This document shows, one piece after another, positions 8,672 to 38,000 of a DNA stretch of 64,000 bases. Every line of letters begins with the position of its first letter. Within the stretch, counting starts at the first letter, position 1. The notes below the pieces were generated by a model. It had not been told where the DNA came from. It saw nothing but the letters and a program-made list of their open reading frames with translations, and did not search any database. This DNA is from Panagrolaimus kolymaensis. Its lineage: Eukaryota > Nematoda > Chromadorea > Rhabditida > Panagrolaimidae. A program made the translations under genes and the position numbers. The stretch spans positions 3,224,001 through 3,288,000 of the forward strand of contig JAJQJQ010000013.1 of NCBI GenBank assembly GCA_028622995.1. Direction: 5' to 3'.

Positions 8672-8836
8672 TTTTTTTTTTGTCTTCCATATATATACTT
8701 CTTTGTCACATTTTAACCCAAAAATATCCAAATCTGTTTGCAAGAAATTTCTATTTTTTAAGGCATTAAATTATAAAACTTCTATTTTTGTGTAAATATC
8801 CACTTCTATTTTAAAAATCTAATAACATTTTTATTT

Positions 8837-14150: not shown

Positions 14151-14156
14151 CAGGTG
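14151..14156 (-). promoter_or_regulatory. E-box upstream of Sre-like gene 1
   Basis: Reads TTACACCTGTTTT on the minus strand, 476 bp before the ATG at 13675. Distance and core match the E-boxes of the two sister genes (458 and 522 bp). Confidence 0.45.
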
Positions 14157-15315: not shown

Positions 15316-15321
15316 CACCTG
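15316..15321 (+). promoter_or_regulatory. E-box upstream of Sre-like gene 2
   Basis: TTTTCACCTGTTTTTTTTT, 522 bp before the ATG at 15838. It fits the extended chemosensory E-box form WWYCACSTGYY known from C. elegans chemoreceptor promoters. Confidence 0.55.
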
Positions 15322-15837
15322 TTTTTTTTTCAATAACACCAGCAGAAATTTTGTTGAAAAAGATTTATGACTTTTTGTTCGCTCAAATTTTTTCTTTGGT
15401 TTAATATTTTTGAAATATTTGACAGTCTAGGTGACAGGTTGCCATGTTAAAATATACCATGTTTTCCAATAAGTTTGCCACTGATTGTTTTATGGGTGTA
15501 AAATTATAGGGTCACATCCAAAATTTTTTTTTAAAAAGTACTTGAAGATTCATTTTCCTTAAATTTGTAGTCATAAAAAATATAAAATGTCAAAACATGT
15601 TTTGTTATGCGCAAGACTATCTTCTAATTTCTTTCATCACTTTTATGGCCTAAGAATAAAAAAATTTTGTTTTTAAATTTGGACGTTTTTCACCTCCTCA
15701 TTTACCCTTTGAAGAGGATTTCGTTGTCATTATAAACATTTTTTGTTCTAAAATTAAAAATCGATGTTTTTTTGATTTATCCATTATTTTTTAATGTTAA
15801 ATTCTCAGAGATTTTTAAATTTTTAATTTCAGAGTCA

Positions 15838-17338
15838 ATGGACCCTGCCACAACAGCCACAATATTCCATGGATTAACAATATTCGAAATAGTTATAAAT
15901 ATTTCACTTTATATTATGGGAAGCTTAAGTTTTTATATAATAGTAAAATATCCTATATTTCATACAAATTTTATGAGATTAATTAAATGCATCATAATTC
16001 ATTATTTTATCGCCCAATTTATGCGACTTATAATAGCTTTTTATGAAGTTACTGCGGAGCAAGATATGGGTATGTTTTTTTTCTCGAGTTCTTGCTAAAA
16101 AAACTTGCTATCGTTTATTAACAAACTTTCATTTAAATATTTTTTAAATTTTCCATTCAATCCCGTCAAATTTATTTTATGTTCAGTATTTTTCAGAATT
16201 TTATAATGTATCATCAAATTATATATTAATTAGTGGAACGGGTGTTTTAACAGCTCTTGGAACTATTCGATTATTTTGTTTGGCTGGAGTTTATGCTACG
16301 ACTGGCACAGTGGCTTTAGAAAGAGCATATGCAACTATTAATTTAAAAACTTATGAAACTACAGTGTCTAATAAATTATTCGGTGCATGTATTGGTTATC
16401 AATTATTTCTTGGTTGTATTGGAACTTTTGGGGTTTATAGTGGTGAGTCACATGCTTCACTAATGTTGATAAAAAAAAGTTGTGATTTATTAATTCTACA
16501 AATTTAGTTACAAAAAAATTTTATACAATTTTTTTCATTTAGATGCATTTTTTGACAAAACTTAAAAAAACATAAATACACAAACTTTTGTTCGATTTTT
16601 CATAAATTGTTTCTAGGAATAATAACGTTAGTGATGGCAGCTATATTTATGATGCTTGGAACCATAATCATTTGTATAATACTTTGGTGGTTAGAAAAAA
16701 TAAATAAAAAATGTTTTAAAACTTCGTTAATGGATCCTCAAAGATATTCTTTGTCGGAAAGATTTCAAATTCAAGAAAATATTAAAACCACGCATATAAT
16801 TAATCGAGTTGCAACAATGGTATTTTTCTTAAATATTTTTGTAGCGTCTCTGATTTTAGCCGCACAATATTTTCAAACTGATTTACTTCGAAGATTTGCA
16901 TATAATTTTTTTCATATTTGCGTCATTTTTTACGGTTATTGTCTAGTGCTAGTGGGACTTTCTGCTAACCCTTTATGGATTCATAATTTTACCAGGTATT
17001 TCTTAGTTTATTTTCTATCATGTTTCCTAGTCTTTTCATTGTAAAACAAAATCAAATAGTCTCTGAAATAAATAACAAAAAAATTAATTCTTAAAAATAC
17101 TTTGCATTTTTTGATGAAAAAAACAAGAATGAACAAAAAAAACTTTTATCTTAATTCTCATTATTTTAGAATATTTATAACCGCGATAAAAGTAGCACCC
17201 GTGGGATTAAATGAAGCTCAAAAAAGGATTTCTTTGAGTAAACAACTTTTAACTCATAATGGAAAACAAATGGTTTTTACGGCCGACGAAGAAAAAGAAA
17301 TATATTTTGATCAACTTAATAATCGATGGAATAAATGA
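15838..17338 (+). CDS. Sre-like 7TM chemoreceptor 2
   Basis: Exons 15838-16069, 16197-16442, 16617-16995, 17170-17338; 341 aa; exons 2-4 have the same lengths (246, 379, 169) and phases as in both sister genes. Signatures: VKYPIFHTNFMRLIK, ERAYATINLKTYE, SLMDPQRYSLSERFQIQENI, NPLWIHNFTR. An acceptor-like TTTTAATTTCAG lies 5 nt before the ATG, which suggests trans-splicing and sets the start. A 174-nt block of exon 2 (16244-16417) is identical to the neighbour at 18954-19127. Expected to be a sensory-neuron GPCR. Confidence 0.87.
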
Positions 17339-18459: not shown

Positions 18460-20008
18460 ATGAACGCCGCCACCGCAGCCTCTATATTTTATGGATTAAC
18501 GATATTTGAAATTGTAATAAATATTTTTATCTATATTATATGCAGCCTAACTTTTTATATAGTTGTTAAATATCCAATATTTCATACAAATTTTTTGAGA
18601 TTAATTAAATGCATAATTATTCATTATTTTATTGCTCAATTTATGCGATTAGTTATTGCTTTTTATGAAGTTACAGCCGATGAGCAAGAAATAGGTAAGC
18701 TTTTATGAGTTATCTACACAAAAATTTGTTATCGGTTTTTACTCTTTTTATCATTTATTTTTATATATTTTTAAATAATTTCTAAAATAATAATGACAAA
18801 GTTTTTGTGATAATCCTTTTCAACCATTTTTCATTTTTTGGCATTATTTAACAGAAACCAAAAAATTTTATTGAAAGGTTATTTGTTTTCTTTTTTTTCT
18901 TTCCAGAATTCTATAATGTTTCATCAAATTATATATTAATTAGCGGCACAGGAGTTTTAACAGCTCTTGGAACTATTCGATTATTTTGTTTGGCTGGAGT
19001 TTATGCTACGACTGGCACAGTGGCTTTAGAAAGAGCATATGCAACTATTAATTTAAAAACTTATGAAACTACAGTGTCTAATAAATTATTCGGTGCATGT
19101 ATTGGTTATCAATTATTTCTTGGTTGTTTTGGAACTTTTGGAATTTATAATGGTGAGTATTAGCTTTTCCCACTTTAAATCCGTTTTTCTTGAACAATCT
19201 TTTATTGAAATGGCCTGCTTTTTCATTTGTGTACACTTTGCAAAAATTGAAACACTTAGAATCCAATTTAATGCAAATTTCTATCATTTTTTTTAGGAAA
19301 AATAACCTTGGTGATGGTAGCGGGATTTATGATATTCACTACAATATTAATTTGTCCAATGCTTTGGTGGCTGGAGAAATTTAATAAAAAATGTTACAAA
19401 ACTTCGTTAATGGATCCACAAAGATATTCTTTATCGGAAAGATTTCAAATTCAAGAAAATATTAAAACCACGCATATAATTAATCGAGTCGCAACTATGA
19501 TATTTTTCTTAAACATTTTTGTAGCGTCTCTGATTTTAGCCGCCCAATATTTTCAAACAGATTTACTTCGAAGATGTGCATATAGTTTTTTTCATATCTG
19601 TGTTACTTTTTATGGTTATTCCGTAGCCCTCGTTGCACTTTCTGCCAATCCTTTATGGATTCATAATTTTACAAGGTAAGAAAAGATTTTTTCATTTTAT
19701 TTCCCAGCTAGTTTTCTTGCTTTTTCGTTGTTGAACAAAAAGAAATTGTTAGTGAAGTAGCAAAAAAATTAATTCTTAGAAATCCTCTGCACAACAAAAA
19801 AACGAGAATTAACTTTGATCGTTATTTATATTTTTTCAGAATATTTATATCTGCAATAAAAGTAACACCTGTTGGATTAAATGAAGCTCAAAAACGAATT
19901 TCTTTGAGTAAACATCTCCTCACCTATAGTGGAAAACAAATGGTTTTTACGGCCGACGAAGAAAAAGAAATATATTTTAATCAACTTAATAATCGATGGA
20001 ATAAATAA
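18460..20008 (+). CDS. Sre-like 7TM chemoreceptor 3
   Basis: Exons 18460-18694, 18907-19152, 19297-19675, 19840-20008; 342 aa. Closest relative is the gene at 15838: exons 2 and 3 are near identical while exon 1 and the introns have clearly diverged. An acceptor-like TTTTCTTCAG ends 6 nt before the ATG. It carries ERAYATINLKTYE and SLSERFQIQENI. Exon 3 has small TM5 changes relative to its sister (LVMVAGFMIFTTILI against LVMAAIFMMLGTIII), so ligand-facing parts differ while the cytoplasmic loops stay fixed. Confidence 0.87.
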
Positions 20009-20536
20009 ACTTAAAATTTTTGTAAACAAGGTTTAAATAAATTTTTTAATGTCGTTCTTTTAACTTTTATTAAAAGAAAGAATAATAGAAATAGTTTAGA
20101 AAGTTAGTTAAAAATTATCCTTCTTTATTTACGCATTAATTATTGCTATTTTAATTTCTTAAAATCTAGAGTCCGATTCTCTCACTTCGTCAGTAAAGAA
20201 TAAAATGTAATTTTCAAACAATATTTCAACTTCTTTTTTCTGAAACATTCAGCTATAAATTTTGCGATTTTCCTAAAATCGCATATTTTTTTATCATATG
20301 CGGTTTACAAACTCGAAGGAATTCTTATTTCTTAAAAATCTTTATAAATATTTTAATAAAATAAAATAAAAATAAAAAGAGAAAAAAAGCATTATTAAAA
20401 ATCCAAGCACTATAAAATTCTTTCTATATAAAAAAGCTTTTACTAATCAAAAATTTTGCATTTTTTACGGGTTTTATCATGTTTCTATGCCTTTTTAACC
20501 TTAATTATGATTTTTTTTTAAAATGAATAAAACACC

Positions 20537-20690: not shown

Positions 20691-21007
20691 AAAATAAAAT
20701 TAACTCTTGAAATTGAGAAAGAAGAGAAAATCTCAAAACGAGCAAATCATTCTTTGCAAAAACATTGTTTTAATTTGCGCCTGTTTTAATTCCTTTCATC
20801 TTTTTTTTGTTGTTAAAAGGCTTAAACGTCATAGAATAAAAAATTTCGCGAACCTTTCAAAAAAAAAAAAAAGCGATATTAGCAATTTATATTCTAAAAC
20901 ATGACTTTTTTTAATTAAAATTGCTTTGAAACGTTTTTTCCCTAAGACTTCAAAGTAAACAACTTCACATTTAAAGGAGCATAAAAAATTTTAAAAGTAT
21001 GATATTT

Positions 21008-21013
21008 CACCTG
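21008..21013 (+). promoter_or_regulatory. E-box upstream of interrupted Srh-like gene
   Basis: ATATTTCACCTGCTTTTTT, 116 bp before the ATG at 21124; the intact paralog at 46034 has the same element at 118 bp. Confidence 0.6.
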
Positions 21014-21123
21014 CTTTTTTAGAATTTTTTAAACACTACAATAATATTGTTTAATTTATTTCTCTTAAGAAAATTCAAGACTTTAATTCATATATCACTA
21101 TTAAAAAGAAATAATCTTTAAAT

Positions 21124-21636
21124 ATGTCAGTAGAAAAAACGGAAATAATTTATAAATTTAATGTTAGTGAAATTTACGATGAAAAATTTGCTTCAAATTA
21201 TTCATTTTTTTGTCATATTCTTTCTATAATAAGTTTATTTTTTGCATTTTTATTATTAATGATAGTTATTTTAAAAACTCCAAATCCAATGAAAAAAATA
21301 AAATTTTATTTAATTAATTATTTATTTGGTGCTATATTAATTCATATAGTGTTGTTTTTAAATCCTCCTATGATTTTATTACATCCATTATTTTTTATAC
21401 ATTCACAAGGAATAAGTAAAAATATGGATTCAACTTTACTATTTTTTATATATTCGTTTATTATATTTGGAGCTCTCATGACTTTAGATTCATCTAGTGC
21501 CATGTTATTTGAGCGGTATTATGCATTAAAAGTAAATGGAAATTCTAAAATTCCTATGTATTTGTTTGGATTTTTGTTTATCACAAACTTATGTATTCTA
21601 ATATTTTTGTTTTTTATTGCTTTTAATAAATCTTTA
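21124..21636 (+). pseudogene. Srh-like chemoreceptor, 5' half of a gene split by Helitrons
   Basis: 171 intact codons: extracellular start, TM1, the KTPNPMKKIKFYLI loop typical of Srh-type receptors, TM2-TM4 and ERYYALKVNGNSKIP after TM3. The frame breaks at ...FNKSL where element DNA starts with CAAGCGCATGG. The missing half is at 33153, in the same frame, beginning YDTVAIPPEN. With the 11,516-bp block removed the ORF is 367 codons without a stop, close to the 362-aa paralog at 46034. Unlike that paralog it has no intron in TM5. As assembled it can only give a truncated protein ending QAHGAHLRWSLTHLL. Both halves are undamaged, so the insertion is recent and an uninterrupted allele may exist. 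Confidence 0.88.
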
Positions 21637-22171
21637 CAAGCGCATGGGGCCCACCTTCGGTGGTCCCTCACCCATTTGTTATGAACATACAAACACTTTT
21701 CGAAAACTTTTACACGATTCTATTGGGACTTAGCCACCACCGCAAGCTTGGCTTCATAACGATACGTTAACGTTGCGTTTTTCGATTTGAATTTTCGGGC
21801 AGTTTTCATATTCCTAAACTACCTCGGGAGCACCATCACTTCATCAACCCTAACCACTCTCTTTCATATTTTAATACATAAAAACATCTCGAAAAGAACA
21901 TATTCCGTTCCAAAAACAAAAGAAAAAAGCGCGCGCTTTCCTTTTCAACACATGCAAAGAGAAACATTCGCGTCGAGAATTTTTTCGATTATGCAAATTT
22001 AAAATGCATGTCCTGATCGACCATTTCGTTTCCGATAAACGAAATTCACATATTCGTAATCAGCGTGAAAAACTGCATAGGACGTGCTAGACACATTTCC
22101 ATTTGCAAGGGGCCACCAAATCGACAAACAAACAAACAAACAGACATACATTCTCGCTTTATATAGGTAGA
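21637..22171 (-). mobile_element. non-autonomous Helitron C, 535 bp
   Basis: On the minus strand it starts TCTACCTATATAAAG, runs through the GTCTGTTTGTTTG tract typical of Helitron 5' ends, and finishes with a GC-rich hairpin (21646-21667, stem GGGACCACC / GGTGGGCCC) about 8 nt before the 3' terminus CTTG. Its 5' terminus touches the CTTG end of element B with no spacer. Its 3' end differs from those of A and B in hairpin sequence (CATGCG before CTTG), so it is a related but distinct subfamily. No ORF. Confidence 0.78.
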
Positions 22172-22506
22172 CAAGATATAAGAAGGGGCCTGCCTACGGC
22201 AGTCCCCACAACTAACATTTATTCAATTTTACAATAACACAAAGTACTCTTCAGCTCACATTCTTTAAAAATCATTTTCTGTCAATGTTAAACTCTTTTT
22301 CTCATAGTTAAATATGAGCAAAAATACTACTACTGCTAACACTCATCATACCTAAAAACAAATTAAGGTTTTAAAAAATTTCAGAAACACGTATATTTAT
22401 TCATTCTAATATGATACAACAAAACAATGCAAAAAGAAAGAAAAACAATTAAAAAAGAGCATACAAAGTATAAAAAAGCTAACAAAAAATGAGAAGAAAA
22501 AAAGCA

Positions 22507-23994
22507 TCAACGGCCAACAAAAGGAATTTCTTCGGCATCCAAAGAATCATCGACTTCTTCACTTTCATCGAGCAAAATTGGATCTTCATTGAAACATTCA
22601 ATTGTGAATAATTCATTAGTGGCTGATTCTCCATCAATACTTGGAATAGGCTTCTTGAATCCAGCGCAGAATCTTAGCATTTTGATGCATTTTCCATCAG
22701 CATATTTTCCATCTTTTTTGCCTTTGAAGATTAACCGACACTTTAACTTTCCATCAGTACAGTTACAGACATATTTATTGAGGCTTCCATAAAAGACAGG
22801 AGCCATAAGTTCCACGACCATGTTCCCTAAAACATAACTAATAATAAAATGAATAGAACAGTAAAACTCACGATAATGTTTGATTCTGTTTTTGCCATTT
22901 TTGTAAAGGTAATCTAGAGAGAGATGATATTTTTCACCATCGTAATCAGGACCAATCTTTTCCTCAACAACAAAAAAAGAAGTGTTGCTGTTCATCTTTA
23001 ACTTGAAGTCTTTTATATCCACACCAGGACGTTTGAATGAGTTCGAATCTCTTGTGACTCTTTGGAAAGCAACCCAGCAAGGATACTGAAAACGTTTAAG
23101 ATTAGTAGTAGCAACATGTAATCAAAAAAAACTTACATATCTAGTTTCGGTACACATTTTACTAAATTCTTCGGCCTTGGAGCCCCATACTGATCCTTCG
23201 AACACTTTCATATTTTTATCACGAAGCAGAACATTCATCACTGGTTCAAGTTTGCCATACGAGCCTTTTACGCGCTTTGGAGCTTCAGGTAAAGAATCCA
23301 GTTGAAATATAAACGTCCTAAAAATAGGTCATATTAATCAAGAGTAAGCAAAAAAAACTTGCTTATCGAGATCTTCTGGTTTTACATCTTGTAAAACATT
23401 TAATTCGTCGAACGCTTCTGCTTGCCTCTTTCGTCTGCCACCAGGAATTTTTACTTTCAATGTAAGATTTGATTCCATTTGAATGCCATAATCGGAAAGA
23501 ATTCGTCCATCTTCAAGTTGTTTGTCTAAAAAAACAAAACAAACATTAACATATTCGTTGTGAGAAGAAAACATACCTGCAAAGATGAGACGTTGTTGAT
23601 CTGGAGGAATACCTTCTTTATCCTGGATTTTCTGTTTGATGTTTTCGATGCTGTCGCCTGCTTCTACTTCCAAGGTGATGGTTTTACCAGTGAGCGTCTT
23701 GACGAAGATCTGCATGACACCACGAAGACGAAGGACCAAGTGAAGAGTTGATTCTTTCTGGATGTTGTAGTCGGACAATGTTCGGCCATCTTCGAGTTCT
23801 TTATCTGAAAATAACAATAAAAAGTAATAAGAATGCAAGAAAAAATAGTTAAACTTACCACCAAAGCTTAAGTGCTGATCTGGAGGGATTCCTTCTTTAT
23901 CTTGAATCTTAGCCTTGACGTTTTCGATTGTGTCGCCGGCTTCAACTTCCAGAGTGATAGTCTTATCAGTGAGCGTCTTGACGAAGATTTGCAT
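22507..23994 (-). CDS. di-ubiquitin fused to RPA-like OB-fold protein, Helitron-borne
   Basis: Six exons: 23994-23859, 23804-23577, 23525-23363, 23317-23137, 23085-22872, 22826-22507; 413 aa; all phases agree. Residues 1-75 are a divergent ubiquitin ([20 protein letters not shown]...LRLRGV) with Gly76 changed to Val, Ile44 changed to Ser, and one residue missing near 41-42. The second ubiquitin is better kept ([17 protein letters not shown]) but has Gly47 to Asp; it ends IPGG followed by RRKRQ, so a deubiquitinase could cut here but not between the units. The C-terminal part ([21 protein letters not shown], later FVVEEKIG) resembles the ssDNA-binding OB folds of RPA70. Intron 3 needs a GC donor (AA|GCAAGT). 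An acceptor-like ATTTTTAG lies 10 nt before the ATG. Plausible role: ssDNA binding during rolling-circle transposition, made as a ubiquitin fusion; the function is inferred. Confidence 0.72.
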
Positions 23995-24097
23995 AATGTA
24001 CAGTCTAAAAATGTGAAAGATATTATGGTAATTTCCTCAACAAAAAAATCAACAAAAACACGCAAATAAACACACAACACATGGAAGCTTATTCCAT

Positions 24098-24295
24098 CTA
24101 ATTTAGAAGACGACCAACTTTATTACACAAAAAATGAAGCAAATGACGAAAAAACAACTGCAAATATTCCATAGAAGAAGAAGATGCTTCGAAGGCATGT
24201 TTAATCCTCACTTCTTTTATGGCCCTTTGAAACGACAATGAAGAACCGCCAAAAATTGTTAATCGTGCTATGAAATTCAATAGCTTTAGCGCCAT
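24098..24295 (-). other. gap between fusion gene and phosphatase remnant
   Basis: A short open frame (MALKLLNFIARLTIFGGS...) occurs here but shows no family match, repeat or splice context that I can support. Most likely spacer. Confidence 0.25.
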
Positions 24296-24479
24296 TTTTT
24301 GTTTGAAAATAATGTTATATGACCGAAAAACTAAATCAACATGAAAGCCACCTTCAATAACATAAAACTATTAAACTATCACTTCATCGAATAAATAGGC
24401 AACATTCAAATTCATTTGTTAAAACTATGCTTCTAAAAACAACACTTTACGATACAATCATTTATAACAATAATTTATT

Positions 24480-25545
24480 TTTACAAAAAACAAACAAAAA
24501 CAATAATTTGGTGCTGAAAATACAGTACATAAAAGTTTATCACAATAAAATAAATATCCATTTCGGCATACTTCATGAGATCGAACGATCATAACAATAT
24601 TGAATTGACGGTTAAATTCTTCAACTGACTCCGTTCCAAACATCCACAATGCATTTCTTAGTTGATTGAATTGCCAGCTACAACATGCATCAGTTCCAAA
24701 AGCGGGATCAGACCACATTAAATCCAATGCAATACCAGTATCACATTCAGCATGAGTTCGAAGCTTCCTAAAAATGAAACAAAAAAGTTAACAATACATA
24801 CAAATAGTTCACAAAAAAGAAAAGTTCAATCAGAAAAAATCAATAAAAATTTGAGCAATAAATCAGAAATTTAGGCGATAAATGATAGACAAATAAATTC
24901 GTTTGTTTTTAGCAATGTAACTCGCCTTTAGTTTATAAAATGATTGCATTCCTTTGATATCAGGAGAAATTCAACAATGCATACAAATGCTTCTTTCATC
25001 AACCATACAACATAATGGCATTTCATTAAAAACCATTTGAGATTTCTTCCATAATTGTGTACCATATGATCGTCGGCATTCTTCATAAATCCCATATAAT
25101 CGATTCATTTTAGCACATTCATGATTCTCACGTAAAATTTGAACATATGGTGGATATAGTAACTTATAACAAAATAATAACATTAAAATTTCAATTTGAT
25201 GTTCTTCCACGATCACAATAATTTCCAAGAAAGATATAAGTTTTCGGTGGTTCATCAACTTTATCATTGTATCGAAGTTAATCAGCAAATTGAACATGAG
25301 TATCACCAAATATTACGTCGGGTGCTGATATATGAATGAATGGACGAGCTTGATGAAGGTAACACATCTGAAAGCAATAAAAAAATGAGTATAAAACATA
25401 AAAGCAGGAAAACAAATAAACTTACAGAATCAAGAATAACATAAACTTCAACTTCAGAAAATCCATCGATTGTTAGATATTTGCGTAAACGATGAAACAT
25501 ATGATTAGCTAAAACACGAAAAATAAAAATAAAATATAATTGCAC
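24480..25545 (-). pseudogene. decayed PP1-type Ser/Thr phosphatase copy inside Helitron B
   Basis: Pieces in the right order on the minus strand: SEVEVYVILDS, an intron (GTAAGTTT...TTTCAG), HISAPDVIFGDTHVQFAD, PPKTYIFLGNYCDRGRTS, ILRENHECAKMNRLYGIYEE, then KLRTHAECDTGIALDLMWSDP and VMIVRSHEVCRNGYLF..FSAPNYC. They match the PP1/PP2A core (GDxHGQ, GDYVDRG, GNHE, SAPNYC). Two metal-site motifs are altered (GDYVDRG to GNYCDRG; GNHE to ENHE). A TGA stop follows FAD, a frameshift follows CDRGRTS, and another stop follows MCMHC. The normal HGG motif after the central block is lost. It is a captured host gene that no longer encodes an enzyme. Confidence 0.8.
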
Positions 25546-25559
25546 GACGCTAAGCTAAC

Positions 25560-26017
25560 AAACAGCAAAAAATCACGAATAACAAACAACGCAACAAAAA
25601 AAAGTGAACAAAATCATATGAAAATCTAAAATGAAAGCTATTACAATCACTCGCTTTAAGAAAAAAATACATCAAAACAAACCTCTCAATGCAAAAAAAT
25701 TGGTAAAATTCTTGTCAAACTTATTCATTTGCATAATTTTTTCGCGTTGCAACTTTCGCAAAAATAAAGCTCAATGTAATCTTTTATCATGTTTTATTAT
25801 GATTTACATATGCTTAGAATGTATTACATTAGCTCCATTTCGTGTCCTTTAAAACGAAAAATACAAAAACCATTGCCAAGTATTTGTTAGTTGAACATCA
25901 AATGTCAACATTAAGCTCTCTTACCACGTCACGGTTCTTAGCATTTAAGAGAGTAAAGGTTTTTTTACGGGAAACCAATGAAAAACCCCAAGGTTGACAT
26001 TAATGCCACTCATATGA
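25560..26017. other. 3' flank of the Rep-helicase gene
   Basis: AT-rich, separates the Rep-helicase stop from the phosphatase remnant. No supported gene. Confidence 0.5.
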
Positions 26018-29000
26018 TTAACTTTCGTCATCACCTTCATTTGTTGGTCGTTGATCGACATCCATTTGCACATTTTGATTCCAACTTGGATACAAATCGG
26101 GATCAACATCATTGAAATCTTGATGGTCATTCCATTCATCAAAAATTTCTCCTTCATGATTTCCTGATAAATCTTCATTAACATTTGGTAAACCACCAAT
26201 GTTTTCATTTTCGTCTTCTTGAGCTGGTGGTTCTTCATCAACATCCATTTGCTCATCATTCGCATTCCAATTCGGATTCAAATCGGCATATGTCGGTGCA
26301 TCAGGTTGCATTGCTGCAACCGGATCAGATTCTAAAAGTTCTCCATAAACAATGTTACGCGAGCAATTTACATCATCTGGATGCAACTTAATACGAAGTC
26401 TGTCCCAAGCACGAGTGCGAGATACAGCAACATACAAATGTCCATGGGTAAAGATACCATCACTAATATCAATTCCAATTTGATCGAATGTTTGACCTTG
26501 TGATTTGTTGATGGTCACTGCAAACGCTGGTCTCACAGGAAACTGTGTTCGATAAACTTTAAAAACACTCGAATCATCCAAAAGTGTAATTCTTGGAATC
26601 ATCACCAAATTATCGCTATCATCTGAACGATTAGTCAACCTTTCAGCAATAATTAAATTGCGCTCAAGTTTCTTAACCAACAAACGAGTACCATTGCATA
26701 ATCCTTCTCGAATACTTAAATTACGCATAAGCATAATTACAGTATTTTCTCGAAGACGTAAACGATATGCTGGAAAACCAGCCGGTTTCATCGATTCAAA
26801 ATGTTCAGAAGAATATTCAATAGCATTTTCTTCAACTCGATCAACTGCATGATAAACTTTTTCCGTATTTGGATCAAGTAAATCCATAACCTTTTCATTG
26901 TATTCATCAACTTTTGAGTTCGTTGTTGAAAGAATAGCACGCTTAATCAAATCATGATAATTGCCAGAAGCAATAGCATCTCGAAAAACATGTTCAACTA
27001 AATCGCCATCAGTAATACATTCTACTGGCAAATTTACTTTTCCATTAGGTCCATTGGAACTTCCATTACCAATAGCTAAAATTGCTTCAGCAAAGCCATC
27101 ACCACTATCATCAGCTCTTTCATTTCTAAACAAACGAAATTGGTTAGAAGAAAAATGCATCCAAAGTGGACTCGATTTAACGCTTGTTCGAATAACATCA
27201 TTGCGAGTACCATTGATGACCACTGGTCCTAATTGGCGAAAATCTCCACCACAAATAATAACTTTTCCTCCAAAAGGAAGATCGTTATTCATAATTTCAC
27301 GAAGTTTTTCATCAATTGCTTCTAATGCTCGACGAGGAGCCATAGGAGTTTCATCCCAAATGAATACTTTGGTTTTCTTTATCGCTTCTCCAAGTGCATC
27401 TCGAGGAGTTACACCTGAACTGCTTTCATCAGTGAATGGAAAATCAAGCTTAAAAACGTTGTGGACTGTTCGTCCCATTTCATACAATGAAGCTGCAATG
27501 CCACTCCATGACATAACGATAACTGTATTGCCAGAAGCAATCAAATTAGAAATAATGCAATTGAAAAGATAAGTCTTCCCTGATCCACCTGGTCCATCAA
27601 CATAGAAACAGGCAGCAGAATTATCAGGCGTATTAACTCTACCCATAATTGCCTCAAACGCTTGAGCTTGTTCGGGATTCAAATTTCCCCTCATTTCATC
27701 ACCACGAAGTCGATGAACTGCAATATCGATAGTTTCTTCTTCGATTCCAACAATCTCTGCAATCATTTGAAGAATAGGATAATCTTCCAATGAACGTTCC
27801 ATGTTGATAATTAACCTCAACGTTTGTCGCCAAGCCAAATGTTCAGCAAGGTCCATATCGCCGTGGTGACTTCGAAGAAGATCCGCAGTCAACTGATATC
27901 GAAATTGGTTCCATAACCACAAAGGCGCTTCCACATCACAATGTGCTACAATTCGAGCAAAAAGTCGACGAAGTTCTCGTGGCAAATTATGATATGTGCC
28001 TTCTTCTAATGCATCATAAAAAATTTGATCAGATTCAACTAATCCTCGAGCAACACATGCTTCACGAAAAGTGTCATAAACTCTTTCACGATCAAATGGA
28101 TCACGACGTAAATCCTCAAAACCTTGCGGTCCAGTAACAATTGATAACAATTTGCGAAGATAAAACAATTCAGTGTTTTTCGGATTAACGGCATACATCC
28201 TTGGGCATTTAGGCTTCGAAGTTTTACATCGAGGATGCCATTCGTGCTTCTTTGCATCCCATGTGAAATGGTGACAAAGCTCAACATACGTAAGATTGCG
28301 ATTATTTCCAGTAGGAAACTTTTCATTCAAGTCAAAAAATGCTAATAATTTAGATTTTTTCATTTGCGCAGAAATCATTTCATCCAAAGAAGGATCTTCA
28401 GCTAAAGTGATCGTTTGTTGTTCAGGTAAATGAACCTGCAAACGTTCAACGCTTTCACTCGAAAAATGCATGTCAAACTTTAAAAGTCTCCAACATGCTT
28501 CATGAGCGCATAAATAACGTGCATCAAGGAAACATTGAATTTCATCATAATCAACTTGTCCATTGCTGATCTCAATATTAATCCTACTTGGACCTTTAAA
28601 AAGATATTTGAATAAATAATTCACTGTTCCCAAACTATGAACAACTTCAACGTTGATATGACAACGAAAACGTTTGAGCAAATATGCATTGTATGGAACA
28701 ACGGATCGATTATCAACCGTAAAAGGTCGACCTTTAAAATTAATAGTTGCAGTTCTTCCATCATTTGGTCGTCGATAAGTTGGATAATTATTTTCATCCA
28801 AACTTGTCTCATCACAAAATGCTCGTGGAAAACGCCTCTTACATCTACCATCCTGCATACACATTGCATTAGGATCATATTCGCCACATGGCCGATGTAA
28901 CAAATTCTTCACCACTAAATCATATAGTTCTTTATCTTCAACTTCATTTGGAATTTGAGCAGAAATGAAGCGATCAATTTTGTTGGGATCATTCCAACCT

Positions 29001-31282
29001 TCTTCAAGCCACCACAAACTATGAATATGCGGTAAACCACGCTTTTGGAATTCAACAACATAAAGAAAAGCCTTTACTTTGCCAAAAATTCCACTCTTCA
29101 TTTCTTTTACAAATTGTTTAACATGATAATTAAACACAATATCAACAACATCAGGTCGATCAAAAGCTTTTTGATTCTCAAACAACTCATTTGTAATGTC
29201 CGGATGATCGGGATTACACGTTTTCGTAATAAACAAATTAGGCTTTCCATGTTTTTGAGCCGTCGCCATAGCATCATGCATAAACTCAGCTTGACTGCGA
29301 GGTCCCATCGTATAACTTGATGGAAGAATAATCTTTTTTCCTGGTAAAGCATTATTATCTTCCGCAACATTTCGAATATAGTCTGAAAGACCCGTATAAC
29401 TATCAACTCTAAACTTCCTTTGATTGTTTCTCAAAAACTTCATTCGTTCATTATCCACAATGGAAAACGACCAAACCAAATACTTACTTAACAATTTGCC
29501 TCCATGAAGAATGGGATTAAATGGTTCATTATCATTTTCTGGTCGATGAGCCAGCTTATACAAATAATACTGCAATGGAGTAATTTTTCCACCTTCGTTA
29601 GTGTATGGATTTTTTCGTCTTTCATAATGCCAAAAATCTCCAGTACCAAGAGGATTAAACAACACGAACGTTAACGGTTCCATGTGTTTCGAATAACGTG
29701 AGATTCTTTCAGCCATAATTGGCTCATTATCAGAATAGCGTTTGCGTTGAACTTGAATATCATTCCAAGGAATGTCTCCATTTTCGTCACAAATATAAAT
29801 TCCTGCAACTTCATTCGAAACTGTTGGCAATGCATAAACATCACTCGTATTATTCGTTGTCTTTTTGAAGAGAATTTTGCATACTTTTGGTACACGTCCT
29901 TCAGCTTCCGCTAACAATCTTTCTTCATCTTCAATTTCATGAAGCATGCGATAAATTTGTGCATATTGATTAGCGTTAGCCAATAAATTGTGCAAAAACT
30001 CAAAAATTCGTTGTTCACAATCTGCAGCAAAAGGAGCTTGGCAGCGGTATTCAATTGCATCATTTGTTTCAATGATCCATAATTGTCCAAAAGCTGGTCG
30101 TTGTCCAGGCAATGGATCCGTATATCGAGGTAACACATGCATAATTTCACCATGAGTTCGATAATGAAACACTCCAGGCAATTGACGAATTTCACCTTTA
30201 GTATAAGCAAAGCTTACACTCGTATTATACTTGTTAATCTTCTCATGGAATGGCCGCCAATCGGTTCCTTCTTCACGCTTTAATAACTTCTTCAATTCTT
30301 CTGGAAAATTTGGTTCAAAATCAATTTTGACTCTTCCCAAATTACAACAACTATCATAAGTTCCTTCAGAACTTCGAGGTTCACATGAATAATGTAATGC
30401 ACCACAAAACGTACACTCAACATTCCTTTCACATAAACTAAACATTTCAGTATCACCATCTTCAGCTCGAAATTCATTTGGTGGATTTTCTTGCCGCCGA
30501 TGATAATCGTTTCGTAAATTCGCATAACGTAATTCTCGCACTCCAGCGGTTTCATTATCTCTTACATTTGCATGATTTACACGATCAGCTTCCATACGAG
30601 CTTCACGTTGCTCCTCTGTTTCTTCTTCGCGCATTGAAGCTTGAATAATTCGTTGAGATTCCAACCTTGCTTCACGTTGTTCATCAGTCTCATTATCTCT
30701 CATATCTGCATGAAGCAAACGATCAGCATTTAAACGTGCTTCACGTTGTTCTTCACTTTCATTTTCTCTTACGGCGTTATGATGTAAACGATCAGCTTCC
30801 AAACGAGATTCACGTTGATCATCTGTTTCATTATCTCGATTCATTCGACGAAGTTCACGAGCTTCGGTCAATCTTCGTTCACGGTCTGCAGCAGTTTCCT
30901 GTTGCCTCAATTCTCTTCTTCTTGCTCGAGATCTTTCAAGCTCAGCAAGTTTTTCCTCATCGGTTTGGCGTTGCCGCTGCCACCTCATTCTGCGTTTTTT
31001 ATCGCCAACTCTTATTTTCATTCGACGACAATATTCAGCCCAGGTTTCTTGAGCCGCTGCTGCAAGTTGAACTTCTTCATTGGGAATAAGTTCCTGACTT
31101 TCGATGATATTAACATCAATCATGGCACCTAATAAAATAGGCTCATTTTCATCTCCAGCTCCAACATCAACTTCCATTGGCTCTGAATTATCGATTTCAA
31201 CCCGAAGGTTGCGAGGTGCCCGAAGGCCGTAAAACTCATCACTCTCTCCAACAGCAGCAGAAAAGCTACTACTATCAGACAT
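26018..31282 (-). CDS. Helitron Rep-helicase (HUH nuclease + PIF1-type helicase), 1754 aa
   Basis: One uninterrupted reading frame. Residues about 85-270 are charged, predicted coiled coil, built from repeated units such as NETDEQREARLEADRL. A Cys-rich finger (CERNVECTFCGALHYSC...CCNLG) lies near residue 285. The Helitron_like_N region follows; the HUH motif of the Rep nuclease is GLPHIHSLWW near residue 752, and the two catalytic-type tyrosines are in NYLFKYLFKG near 890. The PIF1 helicase begins with Walker A DGPGGSGKTYLF near 1234, then IWDETPMAPRRALE (Walker B), GGDFRQLGPVV, INKSQGQTFDQIG and YVAVSRTRAWDRL. The enzyme nicks one strand at the element ends, holds the DNA through tyrosine, and unwinds it for rolling-circle transfer. 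The C-terminal 120 residues are acidic and low in complexity. All key residues are present, so it may be active. Confidence 0.95.
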   Translation of the reverse strand: MSDSSSFSAAVGESDEFYGLRAPRNLRVEIDNSEPMEVDVGAGDENEPILLGAMIDVNIIESQELIPNEEVQLAAAAQETWAEYCRRMKIRVGDKKRRMRWQRQRQTDEEKLAELERSRARRRELRQQETAADRERRLTEARELRRMNRDNETDDQRESRLEADRLHHNAVRENESEEQREARLNADRLLHADMRDNETDEQREARLESQRIIQASMREEETEEQREARMEADRVNHANVRDNETAGVRELRYANLRNDYHRRQENPPNEFRAEDGDTEMFSLCERNVECTFCGALHYSCEPRSSEGTYDSCCNLGRVKIDFEPNFPEELKKLLKREEGTDWRPFHEKINKYNTSVSFAYTKGEIRQLPGVFHYRTHGEIMHVLPRYTDPLPGQRPAFGQLWIIETNDAIEYRCQAPFAADCEQRIFEFLHNLLANANQYAQIYRMLHEIEDEERLLAEAEGRVPKVCKILFKKTTNNTSDVYALPTVSNEVAGIYICDENGDIPWNDIQVQRKRYSDNEPIMAERISRYSKHMEPLTFVLFNPLGTGDFWHYERRKNPYTNEGGKITPLQYYLYKLAHRPENDNEPFNPILHGGKLLSKYLVWSFSIVDNERMKFLRNNQRKFRVDSYTGLSDYIRNVAEDNNALPGKKIILPSSYTMGPRSQAEFMHDAMATAQKHGKPNLFITKTCNPDHPDITNELFENQKAFDRPDVVDIVFNYHVKQFVKEMKSGIFGKVKAFLYVVEFQKRGLPHIHSLWWLEEGWNDPNKIDRFISAQIPNEVEDKELYDLVVKNLLHRPCGEYDPNAMCMQDGRCKRRFPRAFCDETSLDENNYPTYRRPNDGRTATINFKGRPFTVDNRSVVPYNAYLLKRFRCHINVEVVHSLGTVNYLFKYLFKGPSRINIEISNGQVDYDEIQCFLDARYLCAHEACWRLLKFDMHFSSESVERLQVHLPEQQTITLAEDPSLDEMISAQMKKSKLLAFFDLNEKFPTGNNRNLTYVELCHHFTWDAKKHEWHPRCKTSKPKCPRMYAVNPKNTELFYLRKLLSIVTGPQGFEDLRRDPFDRERVYDTFREACVARGLVESDQIFYDALEEGTYHNLPRELRRLFARIVAHCDVEAPLWLWNQFRYQLTADLLRSHHGDMDLAEHLAWRQTLRLIINMERSLEDYPILQMIAEIVGIEEETIDIAVHRLRGDEMRGNLNPEQAQAFEAIMGRVNTPDNSAACFYVDGPGGSGKTYLFNCIISNLIASGNTVIVMSWSGIAASLYEMGRTVHNVFKLDFPFTDESSSGVTPRDALGEAIKKTKVFIWDETPMAPRRALEAIDEKLREIMNNDLPFGGKVIICGGDFRQLGPVVINGTRNDVIRTSVKSSPLWMHFSSNQFRLFRNERADDSGDGFAEAILAIGNGSSNGPNGKVNLPVECITDGDLVEHVFRDAIASGNYHDLIKRAILSTTNSKVDEYNEKVMDLLDPNTEKVYHAVDRVEENAIEYSSEHFESMKPAGFPAYRLRLRENTVIMLMRNLSIREGLCNGTRLLVKKLERNLIIAERLTNRSDDSDNLVMIPRITLLDDSSVFKVYRTQFPVRPAFAVTINKSQGQTFDQIGIDISDGIFTHGHLYVAVSRTRAWDRLRIKLHPDDVNCSRNIVYGELLESDPVAAMQPDAPTYADLNPNWNANDEQMDVDEEPPAQEDENENIGGLPNVNEDLSGNHEGEIFDEWNDHQDFNDVDPDLYPSWNQNVQMDVDQRPTNEGDDES

Positions 31283-32377
31283 CGCACAAAACGCAAATGA
31301 AGTTTTTCAAAAAAACTACAAAAAAATATCTCTTTAATCAATCAAACTATTAACCAAGAGCGGAATCAATAGATGAACAAAAAACAGTAGTGAAAGCGCA
31401 GAGTAGCCTGAAAAACAACAACGTTGGAAAATTTTATAAAAAACAAAGCTAATAATAACAAAACATTAGCACGGGCGATAGTAGCAAGCGATCAAGAAAG
31501 AAAAAGTAATTACAATAATCATTAACGCAACTTGGTAATAAAAAAAAACGCGACAAAAAATATATACAAATTTTAAATATTATTTCTCAATAAAAAACAC
31601 AACCATCTTCTGCATTAGAAAAAAACAGGTAATGAACAAAAACAACGAAAGCATATTGCGCTTTTCTATCAAAAGCTTCCAAGGCAAGCTTGAGTTTCAA
31701 TCAAGCAAAAAGGCGATTGCATTTAATAAAATAATGAACTTCATTCCATGTTGGCTCACCATTTCCTCATAAAATTACTGCAATTATTACAATGTTCAAA
31801 TTCATAACACTTTTGCTATATAAATTTACAAAAATTAATATCATTACCAAATTACAACACGCTATTTCAAGATTTACTTATTTTCCCATATCCAATTTTC
31901 TTATTAAAAAACTACAGATAAATCTTTTTATTTTACTCCATCATTCACTCACTCTCAATCCTCATTTAAACAAAAAACACAAAATATTAAACAATTTCAT
32001 TTTAAAGCCATCCAGCATTTCAATACACAATACATCCATGCACCACCAAATCCACCAAATAAGCATTTTTTCAAAAACCACAATAAAAAAAATCAAGCAA
32101 CGAAATCTTCTTCAAAAAGAAAACGAAAAATAGCGCTCTTTTTCTCTTTCATCAAACACAAAGAGAAACATTCGCGTTAAAACTTTTTTCATTATGCAAA
32201 TATGCAAATTTTCAAACCTCAATATCATATACATATCTCTTTAGCCGACGCTCGAGACCCACATTTTCGGAATCAGCATACAAAACTACATCGGACTGTA
32301 CAATCACATTTCAAAAAAACAGGGAACAACCCACAGACAGACAAACAGACATAGTCAATTCAATTTATAAGGGTAGA
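31283..32377. other. 5' leader of Helitron B
   Basis: Non-coding, AT-rich. The outer 550 bp (about 31950-32377) align with the right half of element A: shared ATGCACCACCAAAT, ACACAAAGAGAAACATTCGCG, TCTCTTTAGCCGA and the GACAGACAAACAGACATAG tract. A 113-aa ORF at 31792-32133 has no recognisable content. Confidence 0.7.
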
Positions 32378-33152
32378 CAAGATATAAGAAGGGGCCTGCC
32401 TACGGCAGTCCCCACACTTTACATTTATTCTATTTTACAATTACACATAGGGCCCTTCGGGCCCTCATCTCGTCTTCCAGCTTCCATCCCCTGCGGGAGG
32501 TCTACCTTCGGCATCCCTCTTAATTTTACATTAGATCATTTCAAATTTACAAAATGGCCCTTCGGGCCACACAACCCATATCCAAGCTCCATCCCATGCT
32601 TTTACCGTTTCAAATTCAATTTCATTACTGCGATTAAGCACCACAGGCCCTTCGGGCCTCATCTTACGGTCCCTATGAACACATCGAGGTTCATCTCGAC
32701 ATTCATTTTAAATTTTACTTAGGCCCTGCGGGCCTCATTTCCCATTTTCATCTTCCAAAATCGATCCTTATTTAAAAAAATACACAAAAATAACATTTTC
32801 ATTAAACATCCTCCAGCACCTCCACACATACATGCACCACCAAATTCACCAAATATCATTCTTTCAAAATCACAATAAAAAATCACACAACGAAATTCAC
32901 CTTCAAAAAGCAAACGACAAAGAGCTCCCTTTCATCAAACACAAAGAGAAACATTCGCGTTAAAACCTTTTTCAATATGCAAATTTTCAAACCTCAATAT
33001 CATATGCATATCTCTTTAGCCGAAGCTCGAGACCCACATTTTTGGAATCAGCATCAAAAACTACATCGGACTGTCCAAACACATTTCAAAAAAACAGGGA
33101 ACAACCCACAGACAGACAAACAGACATAGTCAATTCAATTTATAAAGGTAGA
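32378..33152 (-). mobile_element. non-autonomous Helitron A, 775 bp
   Basis: Minus strand from TCTACCTTTATAAATTG (33152) to a hairpin (32391-32413) and TTCTTATATCTTG (32378). The 5' 400 bp and the 3' hairpin match element B closely, so it looks like an internal-deletion derivative of B. It adds several short GC hairpins (see 32450-32735). Its 3' end joins the 5' end of B directly. No coding capacity. Confidence 0.82.
32450..32735. repeat. series of four GGCCC..GGGCC mini-hairpins
   Basis: Perfect short palindromes at 32450-32464 (GGGCCCTTCGGGCCC), 32557-32569 (GGCCCTTCGGGCC), 32645-32659 (AGGCCCTTCGGGCCT) and 32721-32735 (AGGCCCTGCGGGCCT), spaced 76-107 bp. The stems have 5-6 GC pairs with a TTCG- or TGCG-type loop and stand out in otherwise AT-rich DNA. 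They resemble Helitron 3' terminal hairpins. Confidence 0.7.
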
Positions 33153-33740
33153 TATGACACTGTTGCGATTCCACCTGAAAATGTTATATCATACATTTCG
33201 AATTATTTGCCTGGTCTTGAAACGAAGATAAATGTTAAAAATTTGATTGTATCAAGAAGTGTTGACTACAAAAATTTTCCATTTTTTGTATACATTGTAG
33301 CTACAATAATTCTATTTCGTTTTATCATTATTGGTTGCGGAATTTTTCTTAATTTTTATATTTCATTAAAACTTCAAAATCAAAATCATTTATCATCCAA
33401 TTCACTTAAATTAAATGAAATGTTACGTCGAATGTTATTAATTCAATTTTCTGGATATTTATTTTGTTATTTAGTACCTCTTATTTTTTTGGTATACGTA
33501 TATTTATTTATTGTAGAACCAACTATGCTTGTGAATTATTGTATTTTTCTTATCGGTTGTTCAGAATTATATGATATTATTTTGACTGGGCTTTTTATAA
33601 AACCCTATCGAAATGCTTTGTTTTATCCTTTCTTGTTGTTTGCAAAAAAATTAGCTTATAAAAAACCTCGAGAACCAATGATAGCAAAAATAAGCCCTAA
33701 TTTATCTGCAGCAATTTCATATAGTTCTTTTAAAGGTTAA
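33153..33740 (+). pseudogene. Srh-like chemoreceptor, 3' half of the split gene
   Basis: 195 codons plus stop, in frame with the half that ends at 21636. Begins YDTVAIPPENVISYISNYLP, then TM5, the intracellular loop with NEMLRRMLLIQFSGY, TM6, TM7 and ELYDIILTGLFIKPYRNAL, the KPYR tail motif of Srh/Sri-type receptors. It aligns along its length with 46642-47276. It has no promoter or start codon of its own in this position; an upstream in-frame ATG at 33042 lies inside Helitron A and is fortuitous. Confidence 0.88.
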
Positions 33741-35068
33741 TATTATATTTAATGATTACATAAGTTAAATATCGTTATTTTCATAAATTTCTGTAAGTAT
33801 GGCATGCAAATTTTCTTTATTTTTTATTCCCTGCTTTTTTATTGTTGTTATTTTTCTAATAAATTTTTTGTATGTACATTTACATGAAATAATTTTATAG
33901 AGATTTTCAAAGAGTTTTGAAAAATCCAAATCAAAGAGACTTTTTAAAAATGATTGAGATTGTAAAAGAAAGAAAAACGAGCAAAAATGAGAAAAATGAG
34001 TAAAATTTTCCCATGAAGACATTGTTAACCATTGTAGACAATAAATATGAATAACAATGACCTTCTTCTTTATCAGTGACACCATTTTTACTTTTCAAAA
34101 AAACATTAAGAAACAAGCATCAATGAGTCATACAAAACCTTTCTATTTGATGATGATGCCATAATGCGATTATATTGATTGGATTTTTTCGTTTATTGGT
34201 TGACCTTAAAAAATATTTAAAGCAAAGCATAAACAAAGCCTTTGAGATAAATTTATTTTATTGATTGCACGAAGAAAAAAAATTCAATTACGGCTGCATT
34301 GTCGCCGCGTCATCATCACGACTATCCAGATTTTATCAAATAAGCTTTCAAAAAAATAAGAGAACATTCGAAAAGCATTTTTATTATTCAATTCTAACAT
34401 TTTTTTAAATGTAACTGCCGGTCGACCAACCAACGGCGGCGCTAATAAATATATATATCAATTTTTTTTTATTTCTCGTAATGCATAAAAAAACACTCAT
34501 GAACCATTCTTTTTTTGTTAATCGCGTCTTCGGTTCTATTTAAAAAAAGGAGTTTTTTTTGCTGACAATCTTTTTTTGGAAGAAAGAGTAAAAGCAATGG
34601 CTTTAATAAATTTATTAAATCCATATTAATCATGCATCATCCCATTGATTTTGAAATATGGGTGCGCACTAACCTTTTTTTGTTTATTGTTATGGTTGCT
34701 TCTATTTTTTTCCAATAATGTGATTACTGGTCATCTTTTTTCCTGGCTGTGGTGGCGTGTGTATGGGTTGTGTGTCATCTTTTCTTCTTTTTTTGTTTAT
34801 CTATAAACTCGTTGTTCGTTATCAGCGCAGCGTTTTAATTGAGACGACAACATTTTTTTTCGGTCGATGTTTTTTTGCGTTTATTCTGCTTATTTGATTT
34901 TCATTCATAGCAACAAAAAAAACTGGGTGATTTAAAAAATTCTGCGCTTTTTTTTAGTTAAATAATTAACATTTTTTTCTTCACTAAAATATTTATAAAT
35001 AATCTTTTTTGTTTTTAAGATTTTTTTTGTTGCGTTAATTTCTAAAGAAAAAAACGCTGGTGAAAAAA
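33741..35068. other. intergenic upstream of the dynamin-like gene
   Basis: AT-rich with T-runs. Short minus-strand ORFs at 33765-34116 lack features. Nothing else supported. Confidence 0.55.
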
Positions 35069-38000
35069 ATGGATTCATTAATATCAGTTATTAGTGAACT
35101 TCGAGAAATTAATTCCATTATTGGAAGAGGTAAAATTGAATTACCTCAAATTGTTACTGTTGGATCACAAGTAAGTTCAAAGCTTCAAAATTGGGCGTCG
35201 CCTTCTATTTTAATAAACTCAAATTTTAACTTCTCTGAATTACAAACTTTGAAATTTCTAACTATTCTGTAATTTTTTGAATATATAACTAAAATAAATA
35301 ACTTTTTTTAGTCGTCTGGCAAAAGCTCGGTCCTCGAAAGCATAGTTGGATGGGATTTTCTTCCACGTGGTAATGGCATTGTCACTCGTCGACCACTAGT
35401 TTTAAATTTGGTAACTGTTCGTGACGATGATCCAAGACGAAAGCAATTACAAATGGATGGAGATTGGGCGACATTTTCGCATATGCCGGGTCAAATTTTT
35501 ACTGACTTTGAAAAAGTTCGAAAAGAAATTGAAAAGGATACTATCAAAGTAGCAGGCGATAACAAAGTAAGAATATATCCAAATTTTGTAGAAAATTATA
35601 AATTTTTTAATTTCAGGACATTTCTGAAACTCCCATAAATTTGACAATTTATTCTGAAAAAGTTATTGATTTATCATTGGTGGATTTACCAGGATCCATT
35701 AGATTGACTTTACCAAATCAATCTGTAACCATTAAAGTAAGTTTTTTAGCGACTTGAAAACTTTCATTTTACCTTCCATTAATTTGAATATATATTTTTA
35801 GCAAGACATCGAAAAAATAATTGATCATTACCTCAAAAGCCCAAAATCTCTCATTCTTGCTGTAACCCCAGCAAACGCGGATATTTCCACCTCGGATGCT
35901 TTATATTATGCAAAAAAGTATGATCCTGAAGGAAAAAGAACCCTTTGTGTTTTAACTAAAATTGATATCATGGATCGTGGAACGGATGCATATGAAATGC
36001 TCACGGGTAAAACCATTCCAGTTAAACTTGGAATTATTGGAGTTCTCAATCGATCTCAAGAAGAAATAAATAATAATAAAAGTATTGAAGAATGTCAAGG
36101 AAATGAAGAAATGTTTTTTCGAACTAATTATCCTTCAATCGCAGCAAAAAATGGAAGAAAATATTTAACTACGCAACTTAATAAAGTAAGTTCAATGGAT
36201 TAAATCGCCACAAAAAAATTAATTCAAAAAATACTGTTTAAAAAAAATTTTGGTTGTAAAAGCCTTAAATTTTTTTGATTTTTTTTTCTTACCAAAATAG
36301 AGTGAATTTAATTTCTAAGTAGTCAAAGGAAATAAAAAATATATGAGAAAGAAAAAAATTTCTTGGTTGATATGCCAGAATTATTCTTTATTTTAAAACG
36401 ATGGACAATCTTTTTTTTTGGACAAAAGTAACTTTATAAAAATCAAATAATTTATTGGCAAAATTTGGCTATTTTTATTTGCTAAAACATAAAATTTTAG
36501 TTATTGATAAATCACATAGCTGAAAACCTTCCCGGGTTGAGAGATGCCATTGATAATATGACTATTGAGCAACGAACAATTTTGGATGATCTCGGAGATG
36601 CTCCACCCGAAGATGAATCGTCAAAACAAACAACAAATAAAGTAATTCGAAATTTTACGGAATTATTCAAAAATTTACTTGATGGAAATCAAGATAATAT
36701 TGAAACCGATAAAATGTAAGCATTTATTTTTGGTGGAAAAAAAATATATAAAAATGGATAATTTAAGAGTTGGTGGTGCAATGATAAATATGGCTTTTCG
36801 AGAATTTGGAAGCTTTAAAGAAATTAAACCTGATGATGGTTTAACTCAAGAAGTTGTCATCAATGCAATGAGAAATGCTCATGTAAGTTTGTTGAATAGT
36901 TATGAGACTGAACACTTTTTTGCACAAAAAAATTGTTTTAGCACTAAAAACTACAAAGATAAATAATTTTTTGGTTATCTTTTTTTAAGTTTAAAGATTC
37001 TTATAAAAAAAATAAACTTTTTCTGCATTTTTAGCGCAGATTTTAAAACTAAATAGCTTTTGTAAAATTTTGGCGCCAAAAATATTTAAAAAAATTAAAT
37101 TTATTGAGAAATGTCTTTTAGTTTGAGCTTTTTTATGTTATGGTATGCCCAATAATAATACTCCTTCCATTTTTAAGGGTACTCGAGTTCCCATGTTCAT
37201 TCCAGAACATTGCTTTATTCAACTTTCTAAACGTCAAATCCGTCGATTAAAAGATCCAAGCATTGCATTTGTGGATACCATCAAAAACTTATTACTCGAA
37301 ATTGTGGATTATTGCACTTCCAAAATAATTGAAAATGAAAAGAATCGTTTCCCGAGACTTTATAAACGAATTAACAAAGTCGCATGTGATACAGTAAATT
37401 TGAGACTTTCGCCAACAAAAACATTTGTTGAAAAAATTGTTGATATGCAAATTAATTATATTAATATTCGACATCCTGAATTTGATTTTGATCGATTATT
37501 GAATGAAGCAAATAACCAAACACTTTGGGCTTCACCGACTTCACTTCCTGAAAATTCGCCTCCAGATGATTCAAGAAGCCGAACCAATACAGCTGCTTCA
37601 GCTCCTCTCGCCCAGCCTCTTTCATTTGTTTTTGAAAATGGTAAAGATAGCGATATCGAAGATTTCCTTCCCCCACCTCCTCCAAGAAGAGGAGGAGGGA
37701 ATAACTGGGAAGAAAAGAAAGAAAAACCAATTTCAACCCCGCCGCTTCAACAACAACAACTAAAACAACCAAATCATTTATATGCACCCGATCAAATTGA
37801 ATTGGATCAATGTAAAAAATTACGTAAGTTTGCTTGATTATTCAAATTTTTTAAAGTTAAATATTTCAAAAAATTTCCATAGGTAAAAACTAACTAAAAT
37901 TTCTGAGAAAATTTTTTATTTAATTATTATTTAAAATTTTTGGCCCTGGCACGAAAAGTCCTAATCATGGTTTTGAAATGAAATATTTTAACAAAAAATT

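Follow-up and report, generated by a model that had tools for sequence, protein, structure and literature searches.

Results

Three abutting Helitron-type elements in a chemoreceptor gene

The 64,000-nucleotide stretch of Panagrolaimus kolymaensis DNA analysed here (the window; contig JAJQJQ010000013.1, C12:3224001-3288000) was found to carry an Srh-type chemoreceptor gene interrupted by three complete Helitron-type elements, here designated units A, B and C, which abut head to tail on the strand opposite to the receptor. Units A and B share one type of 3' end (hairpin type 1) and unit C, from another family, has a second (type 2). Across the genome, 3' ends of type 1 are placed almost exclusively against the 5' end of another Helitron-like element, and those of type 2 are not. 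The array was probably built stepwise, unit C entering the receptor exon and B and A then inserting at the 5' ends of resident elements, a habit that would be genome-wide for the family of A and B.

The two halves of the receptor lie on either side of 21637-33152. The first translates into 171 amino acids (aa) ending in FNKSL and the second into 195 aa and a stop, starting with YDTVAIPPEN; joined, they give 367 codons including the single stop, with zero bases lost or duplicated. They cover complementary parts (5-143 and 157-298 of 302) of the Pfam profile 7TM_GPCR_Srh (PF10318), with scores of 42.8 and 39.1 bits against a cut-off of 26.3. In the genome searched (265.8 Mb, 807 contigs), a query with part of the 5' half gave 13 matches, among them one other close copy, on contig C26 (97%), and 11 others at 81% or less. 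The region C26:3204323-3261989 is collinear with most of the window; the aligned pieces have 83-96% identity and are separated by missing stretches. The C26 receptor is uninterrupted and reads ATCTTTG^TATGAT where the window reads ATCTTTA^(insert)^TATGAC, the alignment being gap-free at the joint. Because this uninterrupted version aligns across the join without gain or loss, the halves belong to one gene and not to two, as the sequence-only reading had proposed together with a same-frame continuation from 21636 to 33153, an unchanged target site and an element gene antisense to the receptor; all of these were borne out. The insert is absent from the syntenic copy and is therefore a presence/absence difference within this genome. 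No target-site duplication was found at the join. The A^T target first suggested agrees with the window, but the insert-free copy has G^T, and the host base before the 19 outermost type-1 units in the loci fetched for comparison is A in 11, T in 4 and G in 4, so that a strict A^T is too narrow. The block was also considered as an intron and rejected, as no GT..AG was seen by eye at its edges on the receptor strand.

From the undecayed state of both halves the sequence-only reading took the event to be recent. New destruction of an intact gene is doubtful, because the C26 frame carries a one-base deletion with a frameshift after about residue 239 and the copy on C13, a third syntenic region, seems to be mostly deleted. 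C13 matches window 34037-36192 at 84%, and the 1500 bases just before that match have their longest match to window 19386-20457 (81%). About 320 bases remain between the two, and within them the terminal part of the C26 receptor finds a 127-base match at 68%. The left part of C13 also matches related receptors in the window and C26 at 84-86% over shorter lengths, which leaves its exact orthology less sure. The receptor gene is probably dispensable.

A paralogous Srh receptor lies at window 46034-47276 on the plus strand. The end-to-end alignment claimed between it and the joined gene is rough only, with 51% identity over residues 1-156 and 39% over 171-331; the gap between the two matched parts looks like an intron in the paralogue and falls near the position of the insert in the split gene. 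Window 3126-17044 holds further chemoreceptor-like frames (Srbc, Sre/Srab), so that a cluster of chemoreceptors occupies part of the stretch.

Termini and age of the three units

On the minus strand the block runs A, B, C (Table 1). The sequence-only reading of a single 11.5-kb Helitron did not survive, as the internal CTTG|TCTACC joins rule against one element: each unit starts with TCTACC and ends with CTTG after a GC-rich hairpin. The 5' TC is that of canonical Helitrons, and copies with different flanks start at the same base. The stems of A and B end 13 nt from the terminus, in keeping with the hairpin some 11 nt before the 3' end of Helitrons; the hairpin of C is weaker, 9 of 200 shuffled sequences folding as well. 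The canonical 3' CTRR is absent, and because all three units end in CTTG they are classed as Helitron-type with a non-canonical 3' end. An Rfam search of 21000-34000 gave zero matches.

Unit B also encodes the combination of Rep (HUH, two tyrosines) and Pif1-type helicase typical of canonical Helitrons. Its long frame matches Helitron_like_N (9.4e-49) and PIF1 (7.6e-49) in Pfam and contains HIH at residue 760, YLFKY at 897 and GPGGSGKT at 1238, which we take to be the HUH motif, the tyrosine pair and Walker A; no endonuclease or deubiquitinase family of Pfam matched the 1762-aa frame at E 0.001. A first look at the genome gave 965 candidates for related Rep-helicases, and 27 of them were scored. 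The nearest of these 27 is 95% identical, several reach equal scores without an internal stop, and one has two stops. The equal scores point to recent activity. Two equal-scoring frames are in neighbouring tandem elements at C56:1306540-1319978. The closest named relatives, from Panagrolaimus superbus (P0005) and Panagrolaimus sp. ES5 (P0007), have 64% and 53% identity; they are from the same genus and not near-identical, the comparison being one of proteins.

The view that the event is recent is supported for unit A only, which differs by 0.13%, gaps ignored, from its nearest copy; B and C are more diverged, the last 428 bp of B having 92% identity to the nearest genomic place and C 97.4% to its best match among the fetched loci.

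Table 1 Features of the interrupted receptor gene and of the inserted elements (window coordinates).
Feature	Position	Strand	Details
5' half of Srh-type chemoreceptor gene	21124..21636	+	Reading frame, Pfam, C26 alignment
3' half of this gene, in frame with the 5' half, up to stop	33153..33740	+	Frame, Pfam, C26 alignment
Unit A	32378..33152	-	775-bp non-autonomous Helitron-type element; 5' TCTACCTTTATAA..., 3' hairpin type 1 ...CTTG
Unit B	22172..32377	-	10,206-bp autonomous Helitron-type element; 5' TCTACCCTTATAA..., 3' hairpin type 1 ...CTTG
Unit C	21637..22171	-	535-bp non-autonomous element, other family; 5' TCTACCTATATAAAG..., 3' hairpin type 2 ...ATGCGCTTG
Unit A 3' terminal hairpin and tail	32378..32413	-	Fold z -4.84
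Unit B 3' terminal hairpin and tail	22172..22207	-	Fold z -5.02
Unit C 3' terminal hairpin and tail	21637..21670	-	Fold z -1.81
Rep-helicase frame, unit B	26018..31306	-	1762 aa between stops; residue 9 (31282) is the first ATG
Predicted six-exon ubiquitin-fusion gene, unit B	22507..23994	-	413 aa, no internal stop
Predicted exons of the ubiquitin-fusion gene	23994-23859, 23804-23577, 23525-23363, 23317-23137, 23085-22872, 22826-22507	-	
Decayed remnant resembling protein phosphatase 1 (PP1)-type Ser/Thr phosphatase	24500..25480	-	GDTHVQF, GNYCDRG and RENHEC in different frames

Genome-wide placement of the two types of 3' end

Genomic places were collected with exact patterns, in which CTTG was built in for the 3' ends, so that they do not give the frequency of other endings, and in which the end letter H excludes places with G there; the totals of 174 and 161 are whole counts, and details per place are from the first 100 listed. 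The type-1 3' end abuts a Helitron-like 5' end at 161 of 174 places. Among the 100 listed, 94 do so under a looser rule, and all 100 are followed by T. For the type-2 3' end of unit C, T follows at 28 of 28 places, with a Helitron-like 5' end at 1 of 28, or 3 of 28 by the looser rule. Neither chance nor a habit common to all Helitrons here explains a contrast of this size. The 5' ends that are abutted are of at least four kinds (TCTACC, TCCTACC, TCTTCC and TCCTCC); for TCTACC, elements with a 3' end of their own were observed. The exact junction of CTTG with TCTACCNTTATAAATTGAATTG occurs at 49 places, and the same 5' end, allowing only C or T at the third-last base, stands behind A, G or T at 98. 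Within the family of unit C, 44 of 71 5' ends lie behind CTTG and the others behind A (16), G (6) or T (5).

Comparison of units within and between arrays

Complete type-1 units (62, or 58 after removal of 4 duplicate rows) were taken from loci fetched for a tandem junction or for similarity to the 3' end of B, plus locus L077, a choice that makes them uninformative on the frequency of tandems; distances ignore gaps. The nearest relative of a unit was in the same array for 5 of the 58 units (7 of 62 before duplicates were dropped). Unit A has copies at C30:2477127 (0.13% different) and C25:1017824 (0.26% different); all three are outermost, each before a different unit. Two further pairs of identical units have different downstream elements, namely C1:586822 with C1:11195873 and C22:1338386 with C25:1018599. 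Judged from these neighbours, unit A and the C1 and C22/C25 pairs look like single-unit moves.

An array at C2:9579585-9585891 (L019-L025, L060) has eight head-to-tail units of 758-811 bp and resembles a young Helitron-built satellite. At C18:851346-861014, two copies of an array (L036, L037) are 6.6 kb apart and have the same host flank. They are identical over 2066 bases and then part inside the second unit; considered as a natural experiment on array growth, they were set aside as a segmental duplication with a breakpoint.

The ubiquitin-fusion gene and other cargo of unit B

Downstream of the Rep-helicase, unit B carries a predicted gene with introns of the GT-AG type, except the third, which is GC-AG. 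The predicted protein consists of a ubiquitin ending in RGV instead of RGG, a ubiquitin ending in IPGG and a 262-aa domain; the unspliced frame matches ubiquitin in Pfam at 3.3e-45. In three copies Gly-Gly precedes the fused domain (IPGG, FPGG, LLGG), as would be expected of a ubiquitin fusion. In the relatives on C57 (L048) and C3 (L052) the fused domain is 82% and 52% identical. A simple Nei-Gojobori count, made on the domain together with the last part of ubiquitin, gave ratios of nonsynonymous to synonymous substitutions (dN/dS) of 0.157 for L048 and 0.236 for L052 against the window and 0.271 between L048 and L052; in the second and third of these pairs dS exceeds 1. The gene is apparently intact and, by these ratios, under purifying selection. 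On C13, C29 and C1, more distant Rep-helicase genes are preceded, at about 1.1 kb, by weaker matches (40%), unlike the downstream position in unit B.

The fused domain had no match in Pfam, PDB, NCBIfam or the protein collection searched, and neither the window domain alone nor a three-sequence profile matched RPA. Searched alone against Pfam, the relative on C13 gave REPA_OB_2 at E 0.077, below the cut-off, and that at L052 none. With a four-sequence profile including the C13 relative, RPA70 chains made up 3 of 4 weak hits (E 0.11-0.81, short of significance), human RPA70 ranking first at E 0.11. The domain is possibly RPA-like, as far as such profile matches suggest, and the ubiquitin part may help the expression or stability of the fused protein. 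A single-sequence model of one unspliced window frame was too poor to use (mean predicted local distance difference test score 40.4).

Between the two genes of unit B is a decayed remnant with GDTHVQF, GNYCDRG and RENHEC, presumably PP1-type phosphatase motifs; it may derive from the capture of a host gene. Fragments resembling phosphatase 2C are reported from maize Helitrons (PMC3288121).

Discussion

The array is best accounted for by successive insertions, a reading that we consider likely. A rolling-circle (Helitron-type) element of the family of unit C would first have entered the receptor exon between X and T (X^T); the second family would have followed with B and then A, each inserting at the 5' T of the resident element. 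The outcome on the minus strand would be the order host-A-B-C-host, joined exactly at CTTG|TC. Mechanistically, Rep may bind resident elements at their 5' terminus (host-X^TC) and nick it, the nick serving as acceptor for the incoming copy. Arrays appear to grow largely by such separate insertions, because near-identical copies of A precede different elements; units of one array are also scarcely more alike than units of different arrays, which favours the same model.

Several observations weigh against this. Some of the 174 places are repeats of one another through arrays, three pseudohaplotypes or homeologous contigs and segmental duplications, and the places are therefore not independent. 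Mean unit distances are slightly lower within arrays than between them (0.110 and 0.123, 58 units), as low in 44 of 2000 label shuffles (32 of 2000 before duplicates were dropped), which suggests some local amplification or joint movement. Outer units are no younger than inner ones (p = 0.40), so that the expectation of the youngest unit outermost found no support, and either the inner CTTG|TC joins are targets too or the model is incomplete. Lastly, C3 and C8 share an element end and a 793-bp unit, with a single mismatch over 2896 bp of base-by-base comparison, in parts that lie 8 kb apart; host flanks and following elements are unlike, and the sequences diverge at CTTG|TC, the TC being common to both. 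To judge from this alignment, the two units of C3/C8 would have moved jointly as a dimer, unless both loci received them separately and in identical order.

That dimer favours the entry of A, B and C together, as a composite started at the 5' end of A with bypass of the 3' ends of A and B (terminator bypass), and composites with several termini are described in maize (PMC3288121) and Fusarium (PMC5148889). We nevertheless regard joint entry as unlikely at the receptor, given that the near-identical copies of A on C30 and C25 precede different units and that no second A-B-C array was present among the fetched loci, which cover part of the genome. A rolling-circle concatemer of one element is very improbable here: head-to-tail Helitron joins and closed circles are described in the literature, and the eight-unit array on C2 and the equal-scoring Rep-helicase frames in neighbouring elements on C56 would suit such an origin, but A, B and C are unlike in length and end type, and type-1 units within one array differ by 11% on average where a fresh concatemer would give identical units. 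Still less probable is an assembly misjoin of two unrelated genes, in favour of which nothing was found and against which stand the uninterrupted C26 gene, flanks that are both syntenic in order, and the making of the published assembly, that of a triploid, from HiFi reads (PMC10374039).

Beyond stepwise insertion, the data allow a bolder reading, which is possible though on balance doubtful: a Helitron lineage specialised on Helitrons, whose new copies would accumulate on earlier insertions and largely spare fresh host DNA, and whose autonomous element would make its own single-strand binding protein as a ubiquitin fusion released by deubiquitinases. Its Rep would then take as insertion site the 5' terminus, once nicked, of resident elements that start with TC and belong to several families. 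If true, by targeting resident copies a transposon could limit the harm done to an asexual host.

Whether tandem Helitrons form as concatemers or by consecutive insertion has, in the literature at hand, been argued from few cases. The question becomes directly testable in this genome, which has more than 100 junctions, near-identical units whose neighbours differ, and another family that inserts mostly into host DNA. In the open-licence literature we found no report of a comparable near-exclusive abutment of Helitrons, of Helitron arrays in Panagrolaimus or of a ubiquitin-fused Helitron gene; in the sections available of a paper on another Panagrolaimus strain, Helitrons are merely named among the repeats.

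Bat and plant Helitrons standing in tandem have been published before, as have closed circles. For maize head-to-tail Helitrons, and for bat as cited there, TC is described right after the 3' end of another element, with a G/T join, and concatemer against consecutive insertion was already debated for the maize pair (PMC2267711); that account concerns one pair, compared with 161 of the 174 type-1 3' ends matched exactly here, and with a second type as contrast. The preference of maize Helitrons to insert near or inside other Helitrons, with composite termini (PMC3288121), is a similar bias, but here placement at the 5' terminus is base-exact. Fusarium and Metarhizium also have Helitrons in tandem or inserted into themselves, where insertion at the 5' end or a rolling-circle product was considered for three tandem copies (PMC5148889); these are single cases with other termini than here. 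Helitrons and Helentrons that encode RPA (PMC4067079, PMC4683698) resemble unit B in having a second gene possibly for a single-strand binding protein, whereas the domain of unit B sits behind ubiquitin and its RPA match is below significance. Those that encode deubiquitinases (PMC9741609) are, like unit B, rolling-circle transposons with a ubiquitin-related accessory function; there the deubiquitinase domains are in Helentron-type proteins, and here ubiquitin itself is fused. Tandem Helitrons are known, then, from maize, bats and fungi.

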